Assembly: GCA_947446885.1 (NCBI GenBank)
Contig: CANFHZ010000016.1
Coordinates: 1 to 35,301 of the forward strand
Reading direction: 5' to 3'
Source: Comamonadaceae bacterium
GTDB taxonomy: Bacteria; Pseudomonadota; Gammaproteobacteria; Burkholderiales; Burkholderiaceae_C
Length of the DNA: 35,301 bases
In this document: one piece after another, positions 3,496-29,009 of the stretch
Position numbering within the stretch: the stretch's first letter is position 1
Layout of the letters: every line of letters begins with the position of its first letter
Position numbers and translations under genes: made by a program
Notes under the pieces: generated by a model
Seen by the model: the letters and a program-made list of their open reading frames with translations, nothing else
The model's database searches: none
What the model was told of the DNA's origin: nothing

Positions 3496-3876
3496 TCAGA
3501 AGGTCTGGGTACCGCGCCCGGAGTGCAGCAAATCACCCAGGACGCCCGCAACCGCGTCGCGCACCGCCTTGGACTTGTCGTCGTCTTCAAACGCAATGCC
3601 CACGCCCTGGCTGCGCCCATACGGCGCTTTGGCGGGGGTTATCCAGGCCACGCGCCCACCCAGCGCGAACAGCTCGGGGCGTTGGGGCAGGGTCAGCGCC
3701 ACAATGACTTCGGCACCCATGTCAAAGTCGCGCGCGGTGGGCACAAAAATACCACCATAGGCGAATTTATTGATGTAGTGCGCATACAGCGTATTGACAT
3801 CTTTGGGGCTGAATTGCAGCAGGCTGGCGCGTGAAGCGCCAGGATCCAGGCTAGTGCTCGTATCGGTGTCGGCCAT
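3496..3876 (-). CDS. pilZ: PilZ-domain protein (type IV pilus assembly PilZ)
   Basis: 126 residues from the ATG giving MADTDTSTSL. A purine-rich GAAGGGAAG stretch precedes that ATG, and the tracked ORF start adds 35 unlikely residues. The core matches the PilZ beta barrel: a strand ending NKFAYGGIFVP, then ALTLPQRPELFALGGRVAW and GVGIAFEDDD. The canonical c-di-GMP motif (RxxxR plus D/NxSxxG) is not evident. This agrees with founding-type PilZ proteins, which act in type IV pilus biogenesis without binding the nucleotide. The position between holB and tatD is the same as in Pseudomonas aeruginosa. Function is taken from that orthology. Confidence 0.9.
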   Translation of the reverse strand: MADTDTSTSLDPGASRASLLQFSPKDVNTLYAHYINKFAYGGIFVPTARDFDMGAEVIVALTLPQRPELFALGGRVAWITPAKAPYGRSQGVGIAFEDDDKSKAVRDAVAGVLGDLLHSGRGTQTF

Positions 3877-3904
3877 ATTGTTTTCTTCCCTTCTCAAACC
3901 AGAA

Positions 3905-4969
3905 TCATCGTGCCGACCGGGCTCCCGGCGCACGCTGTGCGGAGCCGGGCCCGGCGGCGCGCAAAGCCATTTTGGCAGCACCCACCAACGCCTCGGTCAT
4001 CAGACCGGCGTTCCAGGGGTGGTCAACCACCTGCCGGGTCTGCCGCAACTCCCGCTCCCATGCGCCCAGCCCGCGCAGACCCACTGCTGGCGCAGTAGTT
4101 GGCAAATCGCCTGGCGCGAAAAAACGCGGCGGCGCGCCCACGGCCAGGGCGCATAGGTCGTGGCAGAGTTTCTGCAGGGCATCAACCAGCTGCGCTGCGC
4201 TCCAGTCTTTGACGAACAGCGCATCACCCGCCGCCATGGCGCGGGGGAAGCGGGCCCAGACCGCAGCGTCCTGCCCTGCTTGGGCCATCTGCACCACCAC
4301 ATCCGGACGCCCACCGCTGGCGCGCAGCAGGCCTGCCGCCTGGCTGGCGGGCACGCCATGCGCAGCCAGCCAGGCAGCCGACTCTTGGGCGTCTGGCCAA
4401 ACCAAGGTGTGGACCATGCAGCGGCTGCGCACGGTGGGTAGCAAACGGTGGGCGGCTTGGCTGGCCAGAATGAAGCGGGTGTCGCCGGGCGGCTCCTCCA
4501 GCGTCTTGAGCAAGGCGTTGGCGGTGATCCGGTTCATGTCTTCCGCCGGAAAAACCAGCACCACCTTGCCCCGGTTGCGCGCGTTGGTGCGCTGACAGAA
4601 CTCGACGGCCTCGCGCACGGCATCGACGCGGATTTCGCGGCTGGGCTTGCGCGCTTTGTCGTCGATTTCCTGCTGGGCTTTCTCACCCAGCGGCCAGCCC
4701 AGTTCCAGCAAATGCGTCTCAGGCATGAGGACGCGTAAATCCGCATGGGTGCGCACAGCAATGCTGTGGCAACTCGGGCAGTGGCCGCAGGCACCGTCCA
4801 CGCCGGGCGCTTCACACAACCATGCGCCGGCCAGGGACAGGGCCAGGGCGTAGTGGCCCAGCCCGGAGGGGCCTTGGAGCAGCCAGGCATGGCCGCGCTG
4901 GCGGATGAGCGTACGCGTTTGCGCGGCAATCCACGGTGCCACGGGCACTGCTTCAGAAGGCTCGCTCAT
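3905..4969 (-). CDS. holB: DNA polymerase III subunit delta'
   Basis: 354-residue clamp-loader subunit. The N-terminal AAA+ domain has a degenerate P-loop (GPSGLGHYA, lacking the usual lysine), as expected because delta' does not hydrolyse ATP. A four-cysteine zinc module (C-x8-C-x2-C-x2-C) follows. [17 protein letters not shown] and the VRSRC arginine-finger motif are present, then the helical collar. It works with gamma/tau and delta to load the beta sliding clamp. The ATG overlaps the tmk stop by 4 nt (ATGA), and pilZ begins 28 bases beyond its stop. Confidence 0.95.
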
Positions 4970-5606: not shown

Positions 5607-6602
5607 CTATTTTTGCCGCTGGTAGGTGTTGACTGCGCGGTTGTGTTCTTCCAGCGTCGCGCTGAACTGGCTGCTGCCGTCGCCCCGGGCCACAAAGTAC
5701 AGCGCTTTGGAGGTGGCAGGCTGCACCGCCGCCAGCAAGGCGTCCCGCCCGGGCATGGCAATCGGGGTGGGCGGCAAACCGGCATGGGTGTAGGTGTTGA
5801 AGGGCGAGTCCTCTTGCAGATCGGCTTTGCGCAAATTGCCATCGAACTGAGGACCCAGGCCATAAATCACGGTCGGATCAGTTTGCAGCCGCATACCCAA
5901 AGCAAGGCGGTTATTGAACACCGCAGATATCAGGGGCTGATCCGCGCGGCGCCCGGTTTCCTTTTCAATGATGCTGGCCAGAATCAGTGCCTCCTCGGGC
6001 GAGGCCAGCACAGTCTTGCGGCTGCGCTGCGCCCATACGGCTTCCAATCGCCGGTCCATGGCACGCAGTGCACGCTGCAGCACTTTGATGTCCGAGGTAC
6101 CACGTGGGTAGGTGTAGGTGTCGGGGAAAAACCGCCCCTCGGGTGCGACGCCAGGACGCCCGAGCAAGGCCATCAACTCGGCATCACTCAGTGCTTTGAT
6201 GGTCGGCTTGAGGCCCTCGGAGTTTGCCAGTGCCTGGCGCACCTGGCGGAAATTCCAGCCTTCCACCAGGGTCACTGTGCGCATGGACACATCAGAGCCG
6301 ATCAGCCTGGCCAGCAACTGCCAGGGGGTTATCGTGTTCTCAAACCCGTAGCTGCCCGCCAGAATCCTGCGCGACTGGCCCGAGATCCGGAACCATGCGT
6401 ACAGCGCATCGGGATCCAGCGGCACGCCCGATTGCGCCACCAGCGACGCCACCTGGCGCGCGCCCATGCCGGGCTCCACTTCCATCTCTATACCGCCAGG
6501 CGGCAGCTCCACCACCCGCCCAACCCACCACACGCCCACGCCGCCACCGGCCAGAACGAGGCAAAACAACAGGGTCAAAGCCCGTAGGATCCATGTGCGC
6601 AC
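5607..6602 (-). CDS. mltG: Endolytic murein transglycosylase MltG
   Basis: Inner-membrane lytic transglycosylase that cleaves nascent glycan strands. There is one N-terminal transmembrane helix (about residues 8-28), then a LysM-like region (about 40-105). The catalytic YceG domain contains [10 protein letters not shown] (catalytic glutamate, E213 or E215) and the signature [14 protein letters not shown]. The 331-aa length is typical. The start is GTG, with GGGAG about 9 bases upstream. It appears to be the first gene of the tmk-holB-pilZ-tatD operon and is divergent from ygfZ across only 48 bases, which must hold both promoters. Confidence 0.95.
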
Positions 6603-9010: not shown

Positions 9011-9325
9011 ATGAAACGACTGCTTTACGGCTTGGCGCTGTGCGCCTTATGGACCCTGACCCATGCTGCGAACAACGCGGGCCGATGGACCGCGCTGATG
9101 GCTGATGAATGGGCGACGCCACCGTTGGCCTGCGCTCTACCGTTTGCAAATTCTGAGGTAGGGGCAAGCCCACGGCCTCAGGTGCTGGCCGCCAACGCCA
9201 ACTGCGCATCCGACTGCGAATCCCGCCTGGAGTTGTGTTTGAAAGAAGCCAAGACCGACGCCATACGGGATAAGTGCAAGGTCTACTTCAAGGGCTGCAT
9301 CAAGACCTGCAGCCAGAGCAAATAA
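9011..9325 (+). CDS. Small secreted cysteine-rich protein with mirror-symmetric Cys spacing
   Basis: 104 residues. A clear Sec signal peptide (MKRLLYGLALCALWTLTHA) has a likely cleavage site after THA, so the product should be periplasmic or secreted. The C-terminal 40 residues hold six cysteines spaced C-x3-C-x6-C-x12-C-x6-C-x3-C, a palindromic pattern. It is predicted to be mostly helical and charged between the cysteines. I do not recognise the family. The spacing suggests an antiparallel helical hairpin clamped by disulfides, which is inference. A second small exported cysteine-containing protein is encoded convergently just beyond it. Confidence 0.8.
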   Translation: MKRLLYGLALCALWTLTHAANNAGRWTALMADEWATPPLACALPFANSEVGASPRPQVLAANANCASDCESRLELCLKEAKTDAIRDKCKVYFKGCIKTCSQSK

Positions 9326-9356
9326 GCGCCACTTGGGCTGAATGGCGTGGGGGGTT

Positions 9357-9384
9357 CGCTCCAAGCCGCATGCGGCTTGGAGCG
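9357..9384. terminator. Perfect 28-bp palindrome between convergent genes (bidirectional terminator candidate)
   Basis: The 14-base half CGCTCCAAGCCGCA is followed directly by its exact reverse complement. It lies 31 bases after the stop of the plus-strand secreted-protein gene and 34 bases after the stop of the minus-strand gene. RNA from either strand would fold into a long GC-rich hairpin. There is no U-run on either side. Confidence 0.65.
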
Positions 9385-9418
9385 GGTCCGGAGCATGGCT
9401 CAGGTACTGATCCACCGC

Positions 9419-9724
9419 TCAGCGGATCAATTGCTTGACTCTTTCTTCCACCGTTTTGGCGCACACCGCCGTAGACGACATGAACACGCGCGATATCTTG
9501 GTTTTGTCCGGGTCTTCGCAAACATAACGGCAAGCGGTCAGGCCCATGCCCGATTCGCTGGTCTCACGGGTGTCCAGATTGCATTTGGCTGAAACGATCC
9601 GGTAGTCTTTCTTGGCCTTGTCTTTATCAGCGGCCCAGGCAGCGCCTGACAACGCAAGAGCGAGGGCAGCGCCGCTCAACACCGTAGCGTGCCAGGGTCT
9701 TGCCAGGCCGATCCGCAAGGCCAT
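9419..9724 (-). CDS. Small exported hypothetical protein with four cysteines
   Basis: 101 residues from the ATG at 9724. GGAGGAG five bases upstream favours this ATG over the GTG one codon earlier. An Ala/Leu-rich signal peptide ends near AAWA-ADKDKAKK. The mature part has four cysteines (one, then a C-x3-C pair, then one) and a basic C-terminus. No family was recognised. The start overlaps the stop of the preceding 84-aa ORF (TGATG), so it is the last gene of the pepA-holC cluster. It converges on the other small secreted protein gene across the palindrome. Confidence 0.75.
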   Translation of the reverse strand: MALRIGLARPWHATVLSGAALALALSGAAWAADKDKAKKDYRIVSAKCNLDTRETSESGMGLTACRYVCEDPDKTKISRVFMSSTAVCAKTVEERVKQLIR

Positions 9725-9978
9725 CACAACTCCTCCGCAACGGCCGTCTTGGCGATCACACCGGGCAGGCGGGCGTACACGCGGCGGGTCATGCGCTGAA
9801 CTTCTTCCTGGATCACGGCCTGCACGGCATCGCTCAAACGTGCCTCAAAACCCGAGCCAGCCGCATCTACAGGGCGCATTGCCGCGCGGGGACGACGGGC
9901 TTTGCGCACGGCCCGCTTGAGCGTGGGTACCGCATCACTTGCAGGCAGAGCGGCGCGGTTCACAGGCGCATTCTTCAT
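9724..9978 (-). CDS. Hypothetical 84-aa protein downstream of holC
   Basis: Short basic, Ala/Arg-rich protein with a helical C-terminal half (GFEARLSDAVQAVIQEEVQRMTRR is too long to be chance helix only, by eye). No signal peptide or known domain was recognised. The ATG overlaps the holC stop by 4 nt (ATGA), and its stop overlaps the next start, so it is translated as part of the pepA-holC operon. A role with the replisome is suggested only by position. Confidence 0.7.
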   Translation of the reverse strand: MKNAPVNRAALPASDAVPTLKRAVRKARRPRAAMRPVDAAGSGFEARLSDAVQAVIQEEVQRMTRRVYARLPGVIAKTAVAEEL

Positions 9979-10418
9979 GCTGCGGTCTCCTGGCCTGCAC
10001 CCGCATCATGCATGGTCACAGCGCACCCAGCGGCGTCATAGGCCCGCTTGCGCGAGCGACCCGACTGGCGGTCATCCATGTCAGTCCCCACAATGTCGAG
10101 GATGCGTTGGCAGTGCTGCGCACCGCGGGGCAATTCGGCGCCCAGGTTCAGCACCAGCACGCGTTCGGGGTCGTGTGCAGCGTCCGGCTGCGACAGCAGG
10201 ACGGGGCTGCGCAACTGCACAGCAGCCGGCGCCCGGTCGTCGCAATGGGCCAGAAAAGCAGTCGGTGTCAGCGCCCACAGCCGGGCGCTCAAGGCGGATG
10301 CCTGCGCGGGATCGACCACCACCCGTGCCCGCTGGCCGCTGCGCGCCACCTTGCGCAGCAAACGGGCGGCGTAGTCCACCTTGTCGGCTACGCCGTAATG
10401 AAAAACCACCTCGGTCAT
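9975..10418 (-). CDS. holC: DNA polymerase III subunit chi
   Basis: 147-residue chi subunit, which links the clamp loader (through psi) to single-strand-binding protein. Visible family features are the N-terminal FHYGVADKVDYAARLLRKV, the internal LWALTPTAFLAHC and PVLLSQ segments, and the C-terminal GCAVTMHDAG. The ATG overlaps the pepA stop by 4 nt, the common pepA-holC arrangement of proteobacteria. The next small ORF overlaps its end in the same manner. Confidence 0.92.
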   Translation of the reverse strand: MTEVVFHYGVADKVDYAARLLRKVARSGQRARVVVDPAQASALSARLWALTPTAFLAHCDDRAPAAVQLRSPVLLSQPDAAHDPERVLVLNLGAELPRGAQHCQRILDIVGTDMDDRQSGRSRKRAYDAAGCAVTMHDAGAGQETAA

Positions 10419-11884
10419 GGATTCTCACTGCGGCTACAGACAAATTCCACCAGCATAGGCACGGGGCGACCGGTCGCACCTTTTTGCGCGCCCGACTTCC
10501 AGGCGGTTCCTGCAATATCCAAGTGGGCCCAGGCAAACTTGTCGGTGAAGCGTTGCAAAAACTTGGCTGCGGTGACCGCTCCAGCCATGCGGCCTGCGAT
10601 ATTGGCCACATCGGCAAAATTGCTTTTCAGGCCCTCTGCATAGTCATCGTCCAGCGGCATGCGCCAAACCGGATCCTGGGCGCGCTCGGAGGCCTCGGCC
10701 AAGGACTTGGCCAAGGCATCGTCAGGCGAAAACAAAGCGGATCGCACGCTGCCCAAAGCCACCACGCAGGCACCGGTTAGCGTGGCAATATCCACCACCA
10801 CCGCCGGTTTGAAACGTTCCGCATAGGTCAGCGCGTCGCACAGAATCAAGCGGCCTTCGGCGTCGGTGTTCAAAATTTCGATGGTCTGGCCGCTCATGCT
10901 GGTCACAACATCGCCGGGCTTGACCGCGTCGCCACTGATCAGGTTTTCGCAACTGGGGATCAGACCCACGACGTTGATTTTGGGTTTGAGCAGCGTCAAA
11001 GCTTTGAAGGTGCCGAGCACGCTGGCAGCACCGCACATATCGAATTTCATCTCATCCATCTCACCGGAGGGCTTGATGGAGATGCCGCCGCTGTCAAATG
11101 TGATGCCCTTCCCAACCAGCACCGTTGGGGCTGCCGATTTGGCCGCTCCGTTGTAGCGCAGCACGATAAAGCGCAAGGGCTGGCTTGAGCCCTGTGCCAC
11201 CGCCATGAACGCCCCCATGCCCAATTTGGCCACCTGGGCCGGACCCAGGACCTCGCAGGAAAAACGCGTCGAGCTGGCCGCCTTCACCAGATCGCGTGCG
11301 GCCTTGGCCAGATGGGTTGGGGTGGCGTGGTTTGCGGGGCGGTTGGCCCACTCTTTGGCGAACTCCATGCCCGCCACGGTGGCCTCCACCCGGCGCTGGA
11401 TGTCGGTGCGTCCTTGCACGGCAAATACGGGCGACTCCGGCGCACACAGGCGCACCGACGCCAGCGTACGCGGACTGGGTTTGGACTTGGTGTGGGTGAA
11501 TACATAGCTGCCATCCGCCACAGCCACCGCGGCGGCACGCAGGGCCGCATCCTGTGCCGGTGCCGCAAAGGCCACCACCAGGCGTTTAAGTTTGGGCGAC
11601 TTGACCTGGGCCAGCGCGGCCGCTACCGCCGCCCGGACCTGCACGGCAGTCCCTGCATGGATGCCCACCAGAACCAGTCGCTCAGCCTTGGTCTGGCTGG
11701 GGCGGTACGCGCACAGCGGCTTGGCGGCTTTGGTATCGAGGTCACCGTCTTTAATGGCCTGGGCCACGAGAAGCTCCAAGGGGCTGCGGCCGGCCCGGTG
11801 GCCATCGGGAACCAGCACAAGCAAGGCATCGCACTTTTCCTGTGCAGCGGCTGCCATATCCTGGGATTGAAAGTCAAAGTTCAT
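10415..11884 (-). CDS. pepA: Leucyl aminopeptidase (M17 family)
   Basis: 489-residue M17 metallo-aminopeptidase that releases N-terminal residues from peptides; E. coli PepA also binds DNA. The catalytic C-terminal domain has VGKGITFDSGGISIKPS, MKFDMCGAASVLG and the signature NTDAEGRL. These supply the two-metal ligands and the catalytic lysine and arginine. Length is typical. It is divergent from lptF with 23 bases between start codons, so the promoters must overlap coding sequence or each other. It leads the pepA-holC operon. Confidence 0.95.
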   Translation of the reverse strand: MNFDFQSQDMAAAAQEKCDALLVLVPDGHRAGRSPLELLVAQAIKDGDLDTKAAKPLCAYRPSQTKAERLVLVGIHAGTAVQVRAAVAAALAQVKSPKLKRLVVAFAAPAQDAALRAAAVAVADGSYVFTHTKSKPSPRTLASVRLCAPESPVFAVQGRTDIQRRVEATVAGMEFAKEWANRPANHATPTHLAKAARDLVKAASSTRFSCEVLGPAQVAKLGMGAFMAVAQGSSQPLRFIVLRYNGAAKSAAPTVLVGKGITFDSGGISIKPSGEMDEMKFDMCGAASVLGTFKALTLLKPKINVVGLIPSCENLISGDAVKPGDVVTSMSGQTIEILNTDAEGRLILCDALTYAERFKPAVVVDIATLTGACVVALGSVRSALFSPDDALAKSLAEASERAQDPVWRMPLDDDYAEGLKSNFADVANIAGRMAGAVTAAKFLQRFTDKFAWAHLDIAGTAWKSGAQKGATGRPVPMLVEFVCSRSENP

Positions 11885-26466: not shown

Positions 26467-26733
26467 ATGACCAACCTAACCATTTCGCTGGACGAAGCCA
26501 TTGTCCGCAAAGCCCGTATCCGTGCTATCGAAGAAGGCACTTCTGTCAGCGCCAAGGTACGGGAGTTTCTGGCGCAGTACGCGAAGGTCGACAGCGCAAG
26601 CGCCAACGCCTTGCCTGAACTGCCCATCTTCCAGGGAAGCGGCGGTTTACAACCGGGCATTGACCCCAGTAGCAACAAATCCATGCTGCAGGCGGCTGAC
26701 GACCTTGCGGCCATTGACGAGATCAACATGTGA
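26467..26733 (+). CDS. VapB-type ribbon-helix-helix antitoxin
   Basis: 88 residues from the ATG at 26467, with GGAGA upstream. The tracked ORF start at 26209 is inside antisense hrpA. The N-terminus LTISLDEAIVRKARIRAIEEGTS reads as a beta strand then helix of a CopG/RHH DNA-binding domain. The C-terminal tail, with a Pro/Gly-rich stretch followed by a short helix, would wrap the toxin. Its TGA overlaps the GTG start of the PIN-domain gene, the usual antitoxin-toxin coupling. Confidence 0.85.
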   Translation: MTNLTISLDEAIVRKARIRAIEEGTSVSAKVREFLAQYAKVDSASANALPELPIFQGSGGLQPGIDPSSNKSMLQAADDLAAIDEINM

Positions 26734-27164
26734 CCCCCGATGTCAATGTTTTGGTATCGGCATCCAGAGCCGACCACGCGCACCACCACATAGCCAACGC
26801 GTGGCTGCATTCCGCGCTGGAAGATGCACGCACCGGCGTGTCGCTTGGACTACTGGCACCTGTGGTCGCCAGCTATTTGCGCCTCGTGACGCACCCAAAA
26901 GTTTTCACCCAACCCACCCCAATCGCCACCGCCATTGCTTTTATCGACGCACTGCTACAGCGACCCGGCGTCGCCATGCTCACACCGCAAAACGAATGGG
27001 GAAATCTGAAGAAACTGTGCATAGATTTGAATCTACGCGACAACAAGATCCCGGACGCTTGGATTGCCGCCTGCGTGCTTGAGCGGCTGGAAACACTGGC
27101 GACCTTCGACCGGGATTTTGTTCGGCTGTTACCGGCGCAGCGGCTGGTGTTGCTCTCCAGTTAG
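26730..27164 (+). CDS. VapC-type PIN-domain ribonuclease toxin
   Basis: 144-residue PIN domain, GTG start overlapping the antitoxin stop (GTGA). Catalytic-type acidic residues are seen in DVNVLVSA (residue 4), IPDAWIAA and TFDRDF. The stretch LVTHPKVF marks the subfamily. The acidic residue usually found just before that stretch (S-E/D-L) appears replaced in LLAPVVASYLRL, which may be a subfamily trait. VapC toxins cleave tRNA or rRNA and are neutralised by VapB. The target is unknown. Confidence 0.85.
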   Translation: MTPDVNVLVSASRADHAHHHIANAWLHSALEDARTGVSLGLLAPVVASYLRLVTHPKVFTQPTPIATAIAFIDALLQRPGVAMLTPQNEWGNLKKLCIDLNLRDNKIPDAWIAACVLERLETLATFDRDFVRLLPAQRLVLLSS

Positions 27165-27214: not shown

Positions 27215-28156
27215 TTAGACATACAGAGCTTCCAGCGCGGCCAACTTTTTCATCCAGTTTTCTCTGTTATCCGGGTCATTCACGTAATATTCATTTACGA
27301 ACTCGATAAAAACGTCCTTGGAACGTTCTTTCAATTTCCGGTGAATAGAATTTATTGTGTAAATGCCGTCCCTCCGGTTCGTCTGCTCGATTGCACATAG
27401 CTGTATAGCCGCCATACATCCAAGGAATCCCCGAAAACCGAATGGCGCATTCCACTCGATTACGGTACACAGCTTAGAAACGTCAAGCGGCCTTTTCTTT
27501 TCTTCGGATAGGACGCATGCAAGGATCAGTAAATTCCAGCGCAGTGGAGCTCTTTTTAGAAATCGTTCGACCACGTCGTCTCCAATAACCGGCTGTGACA
27601 CAGTGTCCCCTTGCTGCGTTGAAGGTTTGTCCATTGACTTAGATACATCTTCAAATTTGTTTTCCAATTGATCCATCCTCCCGGGAAAGCTCTCCGCGAG
27701 GTTCTTCAAAATGTCATTTTGTGATGAAAGCGCCTCAAGCGTCTCGTCCAATGAACGCTTGGTTCCAGACATTTCAATGGAAGCAGCTTTGACAAGCTCG
27801 TTGTTTTCGGCAGCCGTTTCGGTGCTCGACCTAGTTTGCTGAGCAAACCTCTCGATGTCGCTTCTTACTTGACGGACCTCCTCTGTCACCGTGTGAATAC
27901 TGCCGAGGCTACGGGACATGCCGTCGTTTGAGATAAAAGAGTAAAAAATCGCCACGACCCCGAGTAACAAAGAAGTCATCGTTGCAGCATTGCTGAGGTA
28001 GGCAGTGAAATCGCCCTTATCAGTCCACCTATCGGTTACCACGAACACGACGATCATCACCGCGATCAGTCCGCAATACCAAAAATGAAGCATGAGCCGC
28101 TCGTAATCTTTCTCTACAGACCGTGCATCTGACGCGGGTTTTTCAGTGGTTCGCAT
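27215..28156 (-). CDS. Unrecognised two-transmembrane coiled-coil protein downstream of a GEMM riboswitch
   Basis: I do not recognise this family. From the preferred start (MRTTEKP, 28156) it has 313 residues: a short cytoplasmic N-terminus, TM helices at about 24-41 and 57-75, a heptad-rich coiled coil at about 85-175, and a C-terminal globular region (about 193-313). The C-terminal region has helix and beta-hairpin alternation suggestive of a winged helix. The tracked start at 28240 lies inside the riboswitch, so it is rejected. GGA seven bases before the ATG is a weak ribosome-binding site. Base composition is visibly AT-richer than the neighbours, suggesting acquisition. It converges on vapC and follows the parE-type gene on the same strand. 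Confidence 0.75.
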   Translation of the reverse strand: MRTTEKPASDARSVEKDYERLMLHFWYCGLIAVMIVVFVVTDRWTDKGDFTAYLSNAATMTSLLLGVVAIFYSFISNDGMSRSLGSIHTVTEEVRQVRSDIERFAQQTRSSTETAAENNELVKAASIEMSGTKRSLDETLEALSSQNDILKNLAESFPGRMDQLENKFEDVSKSMDKPSTQQGDTVSQPVIGDDVVERFLKRAPLRWNLLILACVLSEEKKRPLDVSKLCTVIEWNAPFGFRGFLGCMAAIQLCAIEQTNRRDGIYTINSIHRKLKERSKDVFIEFVNEYYVNDPDNRENWMKKLAALEALYV

Positions 28157-28215
28157 ATCGACGTCCAAATTGCGTTTCGCCAAATCAGGAAATAGCAGAC
28201 AAGTAATCTTGTCCG

Positions 28216-28307
28216 TCGAATCTGGCGGCCCCGCTGACATTGCGCTGTGGTTAGCACCTTAGTTCGGTGGCTTTGCGTCGCCGGTTTTCACCGGGTTTGC
28301 CCTTCAA
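28216..28307 (-). promoter_or_regulatory. GEMM-I (cyclic-di-GMP-I) riboswitch
   Basis: Read on the minus strand, the RNA contains GGGCAAACC, then CCGGT-GAAA-ACCGG (a hairpin with the conserved GNRA tetraloop), then GACGCAAAGCCACCG. Next comes ACUAAG...AAUGU, a tetraloop receptor with a compensating change relative to CCUAAG...UAUGG, closed by GUGCU/AGCGC. The 3' element is CAGCGGGGCCGCC. All three ligand-contact positions known from the Vibrio Vc2 structure appear kept: G20 as the third G of GGGC, A47 in GCAAAG, and C92 in GCC. G at position 20 favours c-di-GMP over cGAMP. UUGAA/UUCGA may close the domain. It lies 60 bases before the preferred start of the two-TM protein gene. Confidence 0.92.
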
Positions 28308-28345
28308 TTTTTTATCCATCGGTCAAGGGCTGAACCGACGGGAAA

Positions 28346-28354
28346 AGCATAGCA
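28346..28354 (-). promoter_or_regulatory. Candidate extended -10 promoter for the riboswitch transcript
   Basis: Minus-strand TGCTATGCT matches an extended -10 (TGn plus TATGCT) and would start RNA near 28339, about 30 bases before the riboswitch. No clear -35 is visible. Read-through from the upstream toxin-antitoxin pair is also possible. Confidence 0.35.
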
Positions 28355-28383: not shown

Positions 28384-28686
28384 TTAGATCTCACCCTCGG
28401 AGTATCCCGACTCCCGTTGATGGCGAATGCGCGCCACCAGAACCAGATCGCGTACTTGGTCGAATTCGTAGCGCGCCAAATAACCGCTGCGTCTGCGCGA
28501 AATGATGAGCTCGCGCAGCCCACCTTCCACCGGCCTTCCGATGCCGGGCTGGTGCGTCAAAACGTGCAAAGCGTCAAAGATGAAATCCAACAATCCACCG
28601 GCCATCGGGTCTTCTGATTCGGCCAGAAATTCCTCTAGCCGCAGCAAGTCGTCGAATGACGCTTGGCTCAGAAATACACGCGTCAT
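28384..28686 (-). CDS. RelE/ParE-superfamily toxin
   Basis: 100 residues with the ParE/RelE plan: N-terminal helical hairpin (FDDLLRLEEFLAES), a second helix with HVLTHQPGIGRP, and strands GLRELIISRRRSGYLARYEFD and LVLVARIRHQRESGY. The terminal RHQRE-type segment is the usual conserved end. ParE members poison gyrase and RelE members cleave mRNA; the target cannot be decided here. It starts 5 bases after the antitoxin stop on the minus strand. Confidence 0.88.
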   Translation of the reverse strand: MTRVFLSQASFDDLLRLEEFLAESEDPMAGGLLDFIFDALHVLTHQPGIGRPVEGGLRELIISRRRSGYLARYEFDQVRDLVLVARIRHQRESGYSEGEI

Positions 28687-28691
28687 AGCCC

Positions 28692-29009
28692 TTAGCCCAT
28701 CGGCGTTGGCACAAGGTTTTTGGGCTTGGTTTGCAAACCTTCGCGGTGTTTGGACATTTCGGAGAAATACGCACGGACACTGCCGAGTTCATAGCCCACA
28801 CCGCTGACTTTCATATCGCTCAATGCGGCTTGCGAGTCCTGCGCAAATGCCTCACGCAGCCGTGTGCGGTGAACCGACTCGGACAGCGTTTGCACCATGA
28901 ATGCATGAAGGCTGATGCCTGCTTTCTGCGCGTCCAATTCCAGCTGGGTTTTGAGCGCTGCGGGCAACTTCAAACTGGTGGGTTTGCTTTGCGGGACGGT
29001 GGTGGACAT
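28692..29009 (-). CDS. Ribbon-helix-helix (Arc/CopG-type) antitoxin
   Basis: 105 residues. SLKLPAALKTQLELDAQKAGISLHAFMVQ is a typical beta-helix-helix RHH DNA-binding domain near the N-terminus. A helical then unstructured C-terminal tail would bind the toxin. It precedes the ParE-type toxin gene in the same transcript. An inverted repeat GGTAGT...ACTACC lies about 20-40 bases upstream of its start and is a likely autoregulatory site. Confidence 0.85.
   Translation of the reverse strand: MSTTVPQSKPTSLKLPAALKTQLELDAQKAGISLHAFMVQTLSESVHRTRLREAFAQDSQAALSDMKVSGVGYELGSVRAYFSEMSKHREGLQTKPKNLVPTPMG

Follow-up and report, generated by a model that had tools for sequence, protein, structure and literature searches.

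In C. difficile, the c-di-GMP-I riboswitches cdi1_4 and cdi1_5 have been linked to type I toxin-antitoxin RNAs within prophages (PMC6563280). This prophage case is the closest precedent found for the locus described here. Defence genes behind a c-di-GMP riboswitch were not found in the literature searched (open-licence PMC). Little is known of how bacteria decide when immunity is worth its cost, and the locus raises the possibility that c-di-GMP may control bacterial immunity.

For the analysis we used a window of 35,301 nucleotides from a Comamonadaceae bacterium, whose genome comprises 2.6 Mb in 161 contigs and contains three GGDEF genes. The only Rfam match identified in the window by cmscan is RF01051 (c-di-GMP-I or GEMM-I), located at 28221..28311 on the minus strand. 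It covers the full-length model (1-87) and scores 70.6 bits (E 4.5e-12; gathering cut-off 35). A GEMM-I riboswitch on the minus strand had been called before in a sequence-only reading of this DNA, which named the RF01051 covariance model as its check, and the match bears out the call. The span given at that time, 28216-28307, is offset by about 4 nt. The conserved core, the GAAA-capped hairpin, GACGCAAAGCC and the 3' AGCGGGG...GCC element listed there are all present. The aptamer has a GNRA tetraloop (GAAA) and its receptor, which reads ACUAAG...AAUGU in the window and CCUAAG...UAUGG in the consensus. This agrees with the earlier observation that the outer C-G pair is replaced by A-U. The specificity position G20, at which cGAMP-type variants have an A, was mapped by the numbering of Vc2. 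All three bases ahead of CAAA are G (GGGCAAA, read directly), so position 20 is a G, as had been proposed, whichever of them maps to it. Judged from its sequence, the window RNA is a genuine c-di-GMP-I riboswitch, which would bind c-di-GMP.

A second RF01051 match was found in the same genome on contig C23. Identity between the two copies extends well past the aptamer, ahead of unrelated genes. With a profile of this 200-nt module, 47 copies of 95-201 bits (threshold >90 bits) were detected. They come from 23 genomes of a single genus, Rhodoferax-type MAGs from freshwater that were picked by their RF01051 matches. The same profile gives the ordinary aptamers of family and genus no more than 80 bits. 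The module consists of an extended -10 element, a leader hairpin, the aptamer, a terminator-like hairpin and a Shine-Dalgarno/ATG region, in this order. The extended -10 element, with the consensus TGnTAAGAT or TGCTATnCT, marks the start of the module (columns 1-9 in an alignment of 33 modules) and is TGCTATGCT in the window (28346..28354, minus strand). A sigma-70 scan found no full consensus promoter at the window leader. The 5' leader hairpin CGTCGGTT...GACCGATGG (28317..28340, minus strand; RNAalifold columns 15-22/32-39) covaries in the 33 modules, several of its pairs showing compensatory changes. These modules hardly vary in the aptamer core, and compensatory changes are found elsewhere; leader and platform are both conserved in this way. 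In 12 of the 33 the tetraloop is UAAA or CAAA, not GAAA (columns 69-72), which should weaken the loop-receptor contact. The terminator-like hairpin has 8 bp and is followed by CTTTCC...GAGGAAGTCGATATG. In the window it reads CGGACAAG-ATTA-CTTGTCTG with a CTATTTCC tail (28196..28215, minus strand; columns 145-152/158-165 in 33 modules). The CTTTCC of the module is able to pair with the Shine-Dalgarno region, which reads GAGGAAGTCGAT in most copies. The window copy, assigned by sequence and module alignment, is weak (TTTGGACGTCGAT, with the ATG start at 28154..28174, minus strand). When the leader was folded under an enforced aptamer structure, there was no consistent or clear ligand-driven change at the ribosome-binding site. 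In a sub-branch (L060, L090, L097 and L103) the hairpin is of another kind and the U-run behind it is clearer (CUUUUU), which suggests a true intrinsic terminator in these copies.

In some module copies the cargo begins at the ATG of the module itself and in others it does not. In L070 (about 5639-5935) and L087 (about 3686-3980) this ATG opens a small conserved ORF (MRQTF...RLAWDFQDRRSATSR*; about 96 aa), and remnants of it precede later cargo in L066, L071-L073, L076 and L081. It is possibly the ancestral cargo of the slot. A motif TTGGGAATTCCAAG...CACGTTAGGC was considered as an integron attC site, but this reading was rejected; the motif reads as the conserved end of the small ORF (RLAWDFQDRRSATSR*), is present at 11 loci only and is unlike the genuine attC sites found in this genus. 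Roughly one in five genus genomes has integron integrases with attC arrays (L139-L147), which are unrelated to the slots as far as seen.

The distribution of the module is narrow. An exact pattern for its 3' part was found in 25 stretches among 85,462 GTDB species, all of them beta-proteobacterial MAGs and mostly labelled Rhodoferax or Comamonadaceae, and in none of the viral contigs. With three mismatches allowed, the pattern is present in 15 of 103 genus genomes, and a sample of 401 family genomes, with about 396 from other genera, gave no match outside the genus. In the samples searched, the module is confined to one genus.

Within this genus, modules occupy more than 10 chromosomal sites, including argA-hrpA (the site in the window), uvrA and dusC, and are always oriented on the cargo strand. 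The tree of the leaders tracks the chromosomal site: for 9 groups it needs 8 changes, which is the minimum, and shuffles average 24.7. At the argA-hrpA site of the relative G239 (L085), 2.3 kb match the window with 90% identity, up to the start codon, and a DUF2971 gene is present in place of P0001, the window's cargo gene. In the pairs L054/L088 and L079/L083, too, homology is lost after the terminator-like hairpin and before the start codon. Two relatives with 91-94% identity (L210 and L211) have an empty argA-hrpA interval of 74 nt, and in G280 (L225) a truncated copy retains the leader hairpin alone. The site-following leader tree, the breaks at the start region and the empty sites together indicate that cargo is swapped behind a leader that remains in place; replacement, descent along the sites and empty sites can all be read from the sequences. 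Homologous recombination, acting between flanks and leaders, is the best-fitting candidate for the exchange itself.

The cargo was identified with Pfam and PADLOC, several of the PADLOC matches being to "candidate" PDC families. Defence families were detected by PADLOC at 13 of the 26 module loci scanned. The strongest match is RT_UG14 (2e-195), a UG14-type defence reverse transcriptase (DRT UG14) of 504 aa that is matched over its full length behind the leader (L062, 6071-7585). The second module of the source genome is followed by a complete PD-T4-2 A+B pair and then dusC (L106, 8656-10656, contig C23), with PD-T4-2_A (3e-135, 9055-10143) and PD-T4-2_B (3e-39, 10147-10656) encoded by adjacent genes. 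Further cargo matches are PDC-S19/DUF3644 (2e-119), bSEFIR (3e-77), dGTPase (5e-73) and PDC-S20/KAP (9e-59), as well as a DNA methyltransferase with an Mrr domain, an OLD/AriA-type ATPase, PDC-S05 and PDC-S48. PDC-S31/DUF2971 was found in three slots. BrnT/BrnA cargo was also found and was left out of the defence score. In L056, L063, L064 and L081 the defence gene is not the nearest gene. About half of the scanned cargos have no defence match; they are mostly orphans, with a few other genes (LuxR regulator, VOC, GNAT). The control comprised 52 genes that follow ordinary GEMM-I aptamers in the same family. These aptamers lack the 200-nt leader and head lipoproteins, secreted proteases and similar genes, and no defence families were found there except subtilase/IetS (subtilase) matches. 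Two such aptamers lie 2-3 kb apart in larger-genome relatives (L104 and L105; G255:C79 and G215:C98). Defence families are enriched at module loci over this control (Fisher exact 5e-8; 8e-6 when unscanned slots are taken as negatives, which gives a conservative denominator of 42), although the loci are incompletely independent, the control takes in other genera and insertion hotspots attract defence genes anyway.

The window cargo, P0001, is an orphan of 313 aa (27215..28156, minus strand; ORF and profile searches). Its likely start is the ATG at 28156, about 65 nt past the aptamer; the listed ORF starting at 28240 overlaps the aptamer. P0001 has two predicted transmembrane segments (about 20-45 and 57-76) and a coiled coil (about 85-180), and profile searches gave no family match for its C-terminal domain. 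Against the PADLOC, Pfam and NCBIfam defence models only weak coiled-coil matches were obtained, and phrog_32514 matches at 2e-7 in the transmembrane and coil part only. No convincing relatives were found in phage, plasmid, viral-contig, family and genus searches, a search of solved structures gave nothing useful, and the AlphaFold model (mean pLDDT 44) is unusable. We agree with the sequence-only reading that the product has no known pilus, flagellum or matrix identity. Plausibly, P0001 is a membrane-acting, hitherto unrecognised defence effector. Upstream of the module and outside the cargo slot lie a ParE-type toxin (28384..28686, minus strand; PF05016, E 1.9e-9) and the probable antitoxin of the pair (28692..29009, minus strand), assigned from its ORF and position with only a weak HicB-like match. 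Downstream and convergent with P0001, a PIN-domain (VapC-type) toxin is encoded (26730..27164, plus strand; PF01850, E 1.5e-7). It forms part of a VapBC-like pair at 26467-27164 on the plus strand, whose antitoxin was read by eye. In relatives (L219-L221 and L223) the PIN toxin is present at the argA-hrpA site without the module.

The RF01051 match and the predicted transmembrane segments of P0001 could also come from an ordinary c-di-GMP-I riboswitch that serves one lineage-specific membrane or adhesion-type protein, the other copies being just paralogous riboswitches. This is very unlikely, as the shared leader and the cargo replacement contradict it: conservation extends far past the aptamer in 47 copies ahead of unrelated genes, syntenic copies carry different genes, and the ordinary aptamers of the family, heading lipoproteins and proteases, do so without this leader. 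A rather doubtful alternative regards the sites as general insertion hotspots with the leader as an old local promoter, giving constitutive or incidental expression and no c-di-GMP control of immunity. Toxin-antitoxin genes do lie in the hotspots outside leader control, folding gave no clear switch, the copy in L225 is truncated, and the platform is absent from L067, L076 and L077. However, an old promoter does not fit well with an aptamer core kept nearly invariant in 33 modules amid compensatory changes elsewhere, nor with a module that lies at more than 10 unrelated sites, each time on the same strand as its cargo.

The module might also be a mobile recombination site or an integron-like cassette end, its DNA being conserved for the sake of site-specific recombination and the aptamer being a passenger. 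Tandem module-cargo units occur in L070, L076, L077 and L067, the comparison of L070 with L065 reveals gain or loss of a unit, and integron integrases were found in 21 of 100 genus genomes. From the tandem units in L070, L076 and L077 it follows that units can be added too. Nevertheless, we consider such a site quite unlikely. The modules track their site and do not move, the attC-like motif is better explained as the conserved small-ORF end at a subset of loci, and genuine attC sites of the genus look different. A profile search did not support an attC-like motif at the 3' end of P0001, and no integron integrase above the cut-off was found in the source genome (best IntI match to TIGR02249 partial, 83.7 bits against 265).

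We favour, with a probability of roughly 70%, a c-di-GMP-controlled cargo slot for exchangeable, defence-enriched genes, in which P0001 is likely another effector. The 200-nt leader, kept at more than 10 sites in these freshwater Rhodoferax-type bacteria, would be the fixed part of the slot. The gene behind it is exchanged, with homology ending past the terminator-like hairpin but ahead of the start codon. Most of the cargo is accessory, anti-phage systems of one or two genes being enriched in it, and c-di-GMP may set the expression of whichever gene fills the slot, defence genes included. Ligand binding, regulation, its direction and the defence function are inferred. The "new c-di-GMP output" suggested before points in the right direction but was too small in scope, since in relatives the leader stands before dozens of unrelated genes that are exchangeable and in which anti-phage defence families are enriched. 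A broader proposal, which may equally well prove right or wrong, is an exchangeable immune repertoire under one second messenger. The leader would then act as a standard socket, and defence would be adjusted to whether the cells are planktonic or surface-attached. Every unknown socket gene, including P0001, would be a candidate new defence system. If true, phage defence would be linked, through a riboswitch at the head of many defence genes, to c-di-GMP as the messenger of attachment and biofilm life, and a single leader with a single reporter would suffice to test this link. The slots would also provide a guilt-by-association filter for new defence genes.

Compared with other RF01051 riboswitches, the window copy is alike in its full-length aptamer, its conserved core and a score of twice the cut-off, but here the aptamer is part of a stereotyped 200-nt leader ahead of unrelated, exchangeable, defence-rich genes. 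The C. difficile riboswitches cdi1_4 and cdi1_5 likewise tie a c-di-GMP-I riboswitch to toxin-antitoxin and phage biology (PMC6563280). There the riboswitch is found with the antitoxin RNA of two homologous prophage loci, whereas here the cargo is protein-coding, occupies many chromosomal sites and is rapidly replaced. Chromosomal integrons resemble the slots in their tandem units, their diverse accessory cargo and the replacement behind a fixed promoter, but the slots are dispersed and single, with no attC at the window cargo and no integrase in the source genome. PD-T4-2 and other single-locus systems of defence hotspots (PADLOC models) are found as full-length cargo matches in several slots, and here they stand behind a c-di-GMP riboswitch leader.
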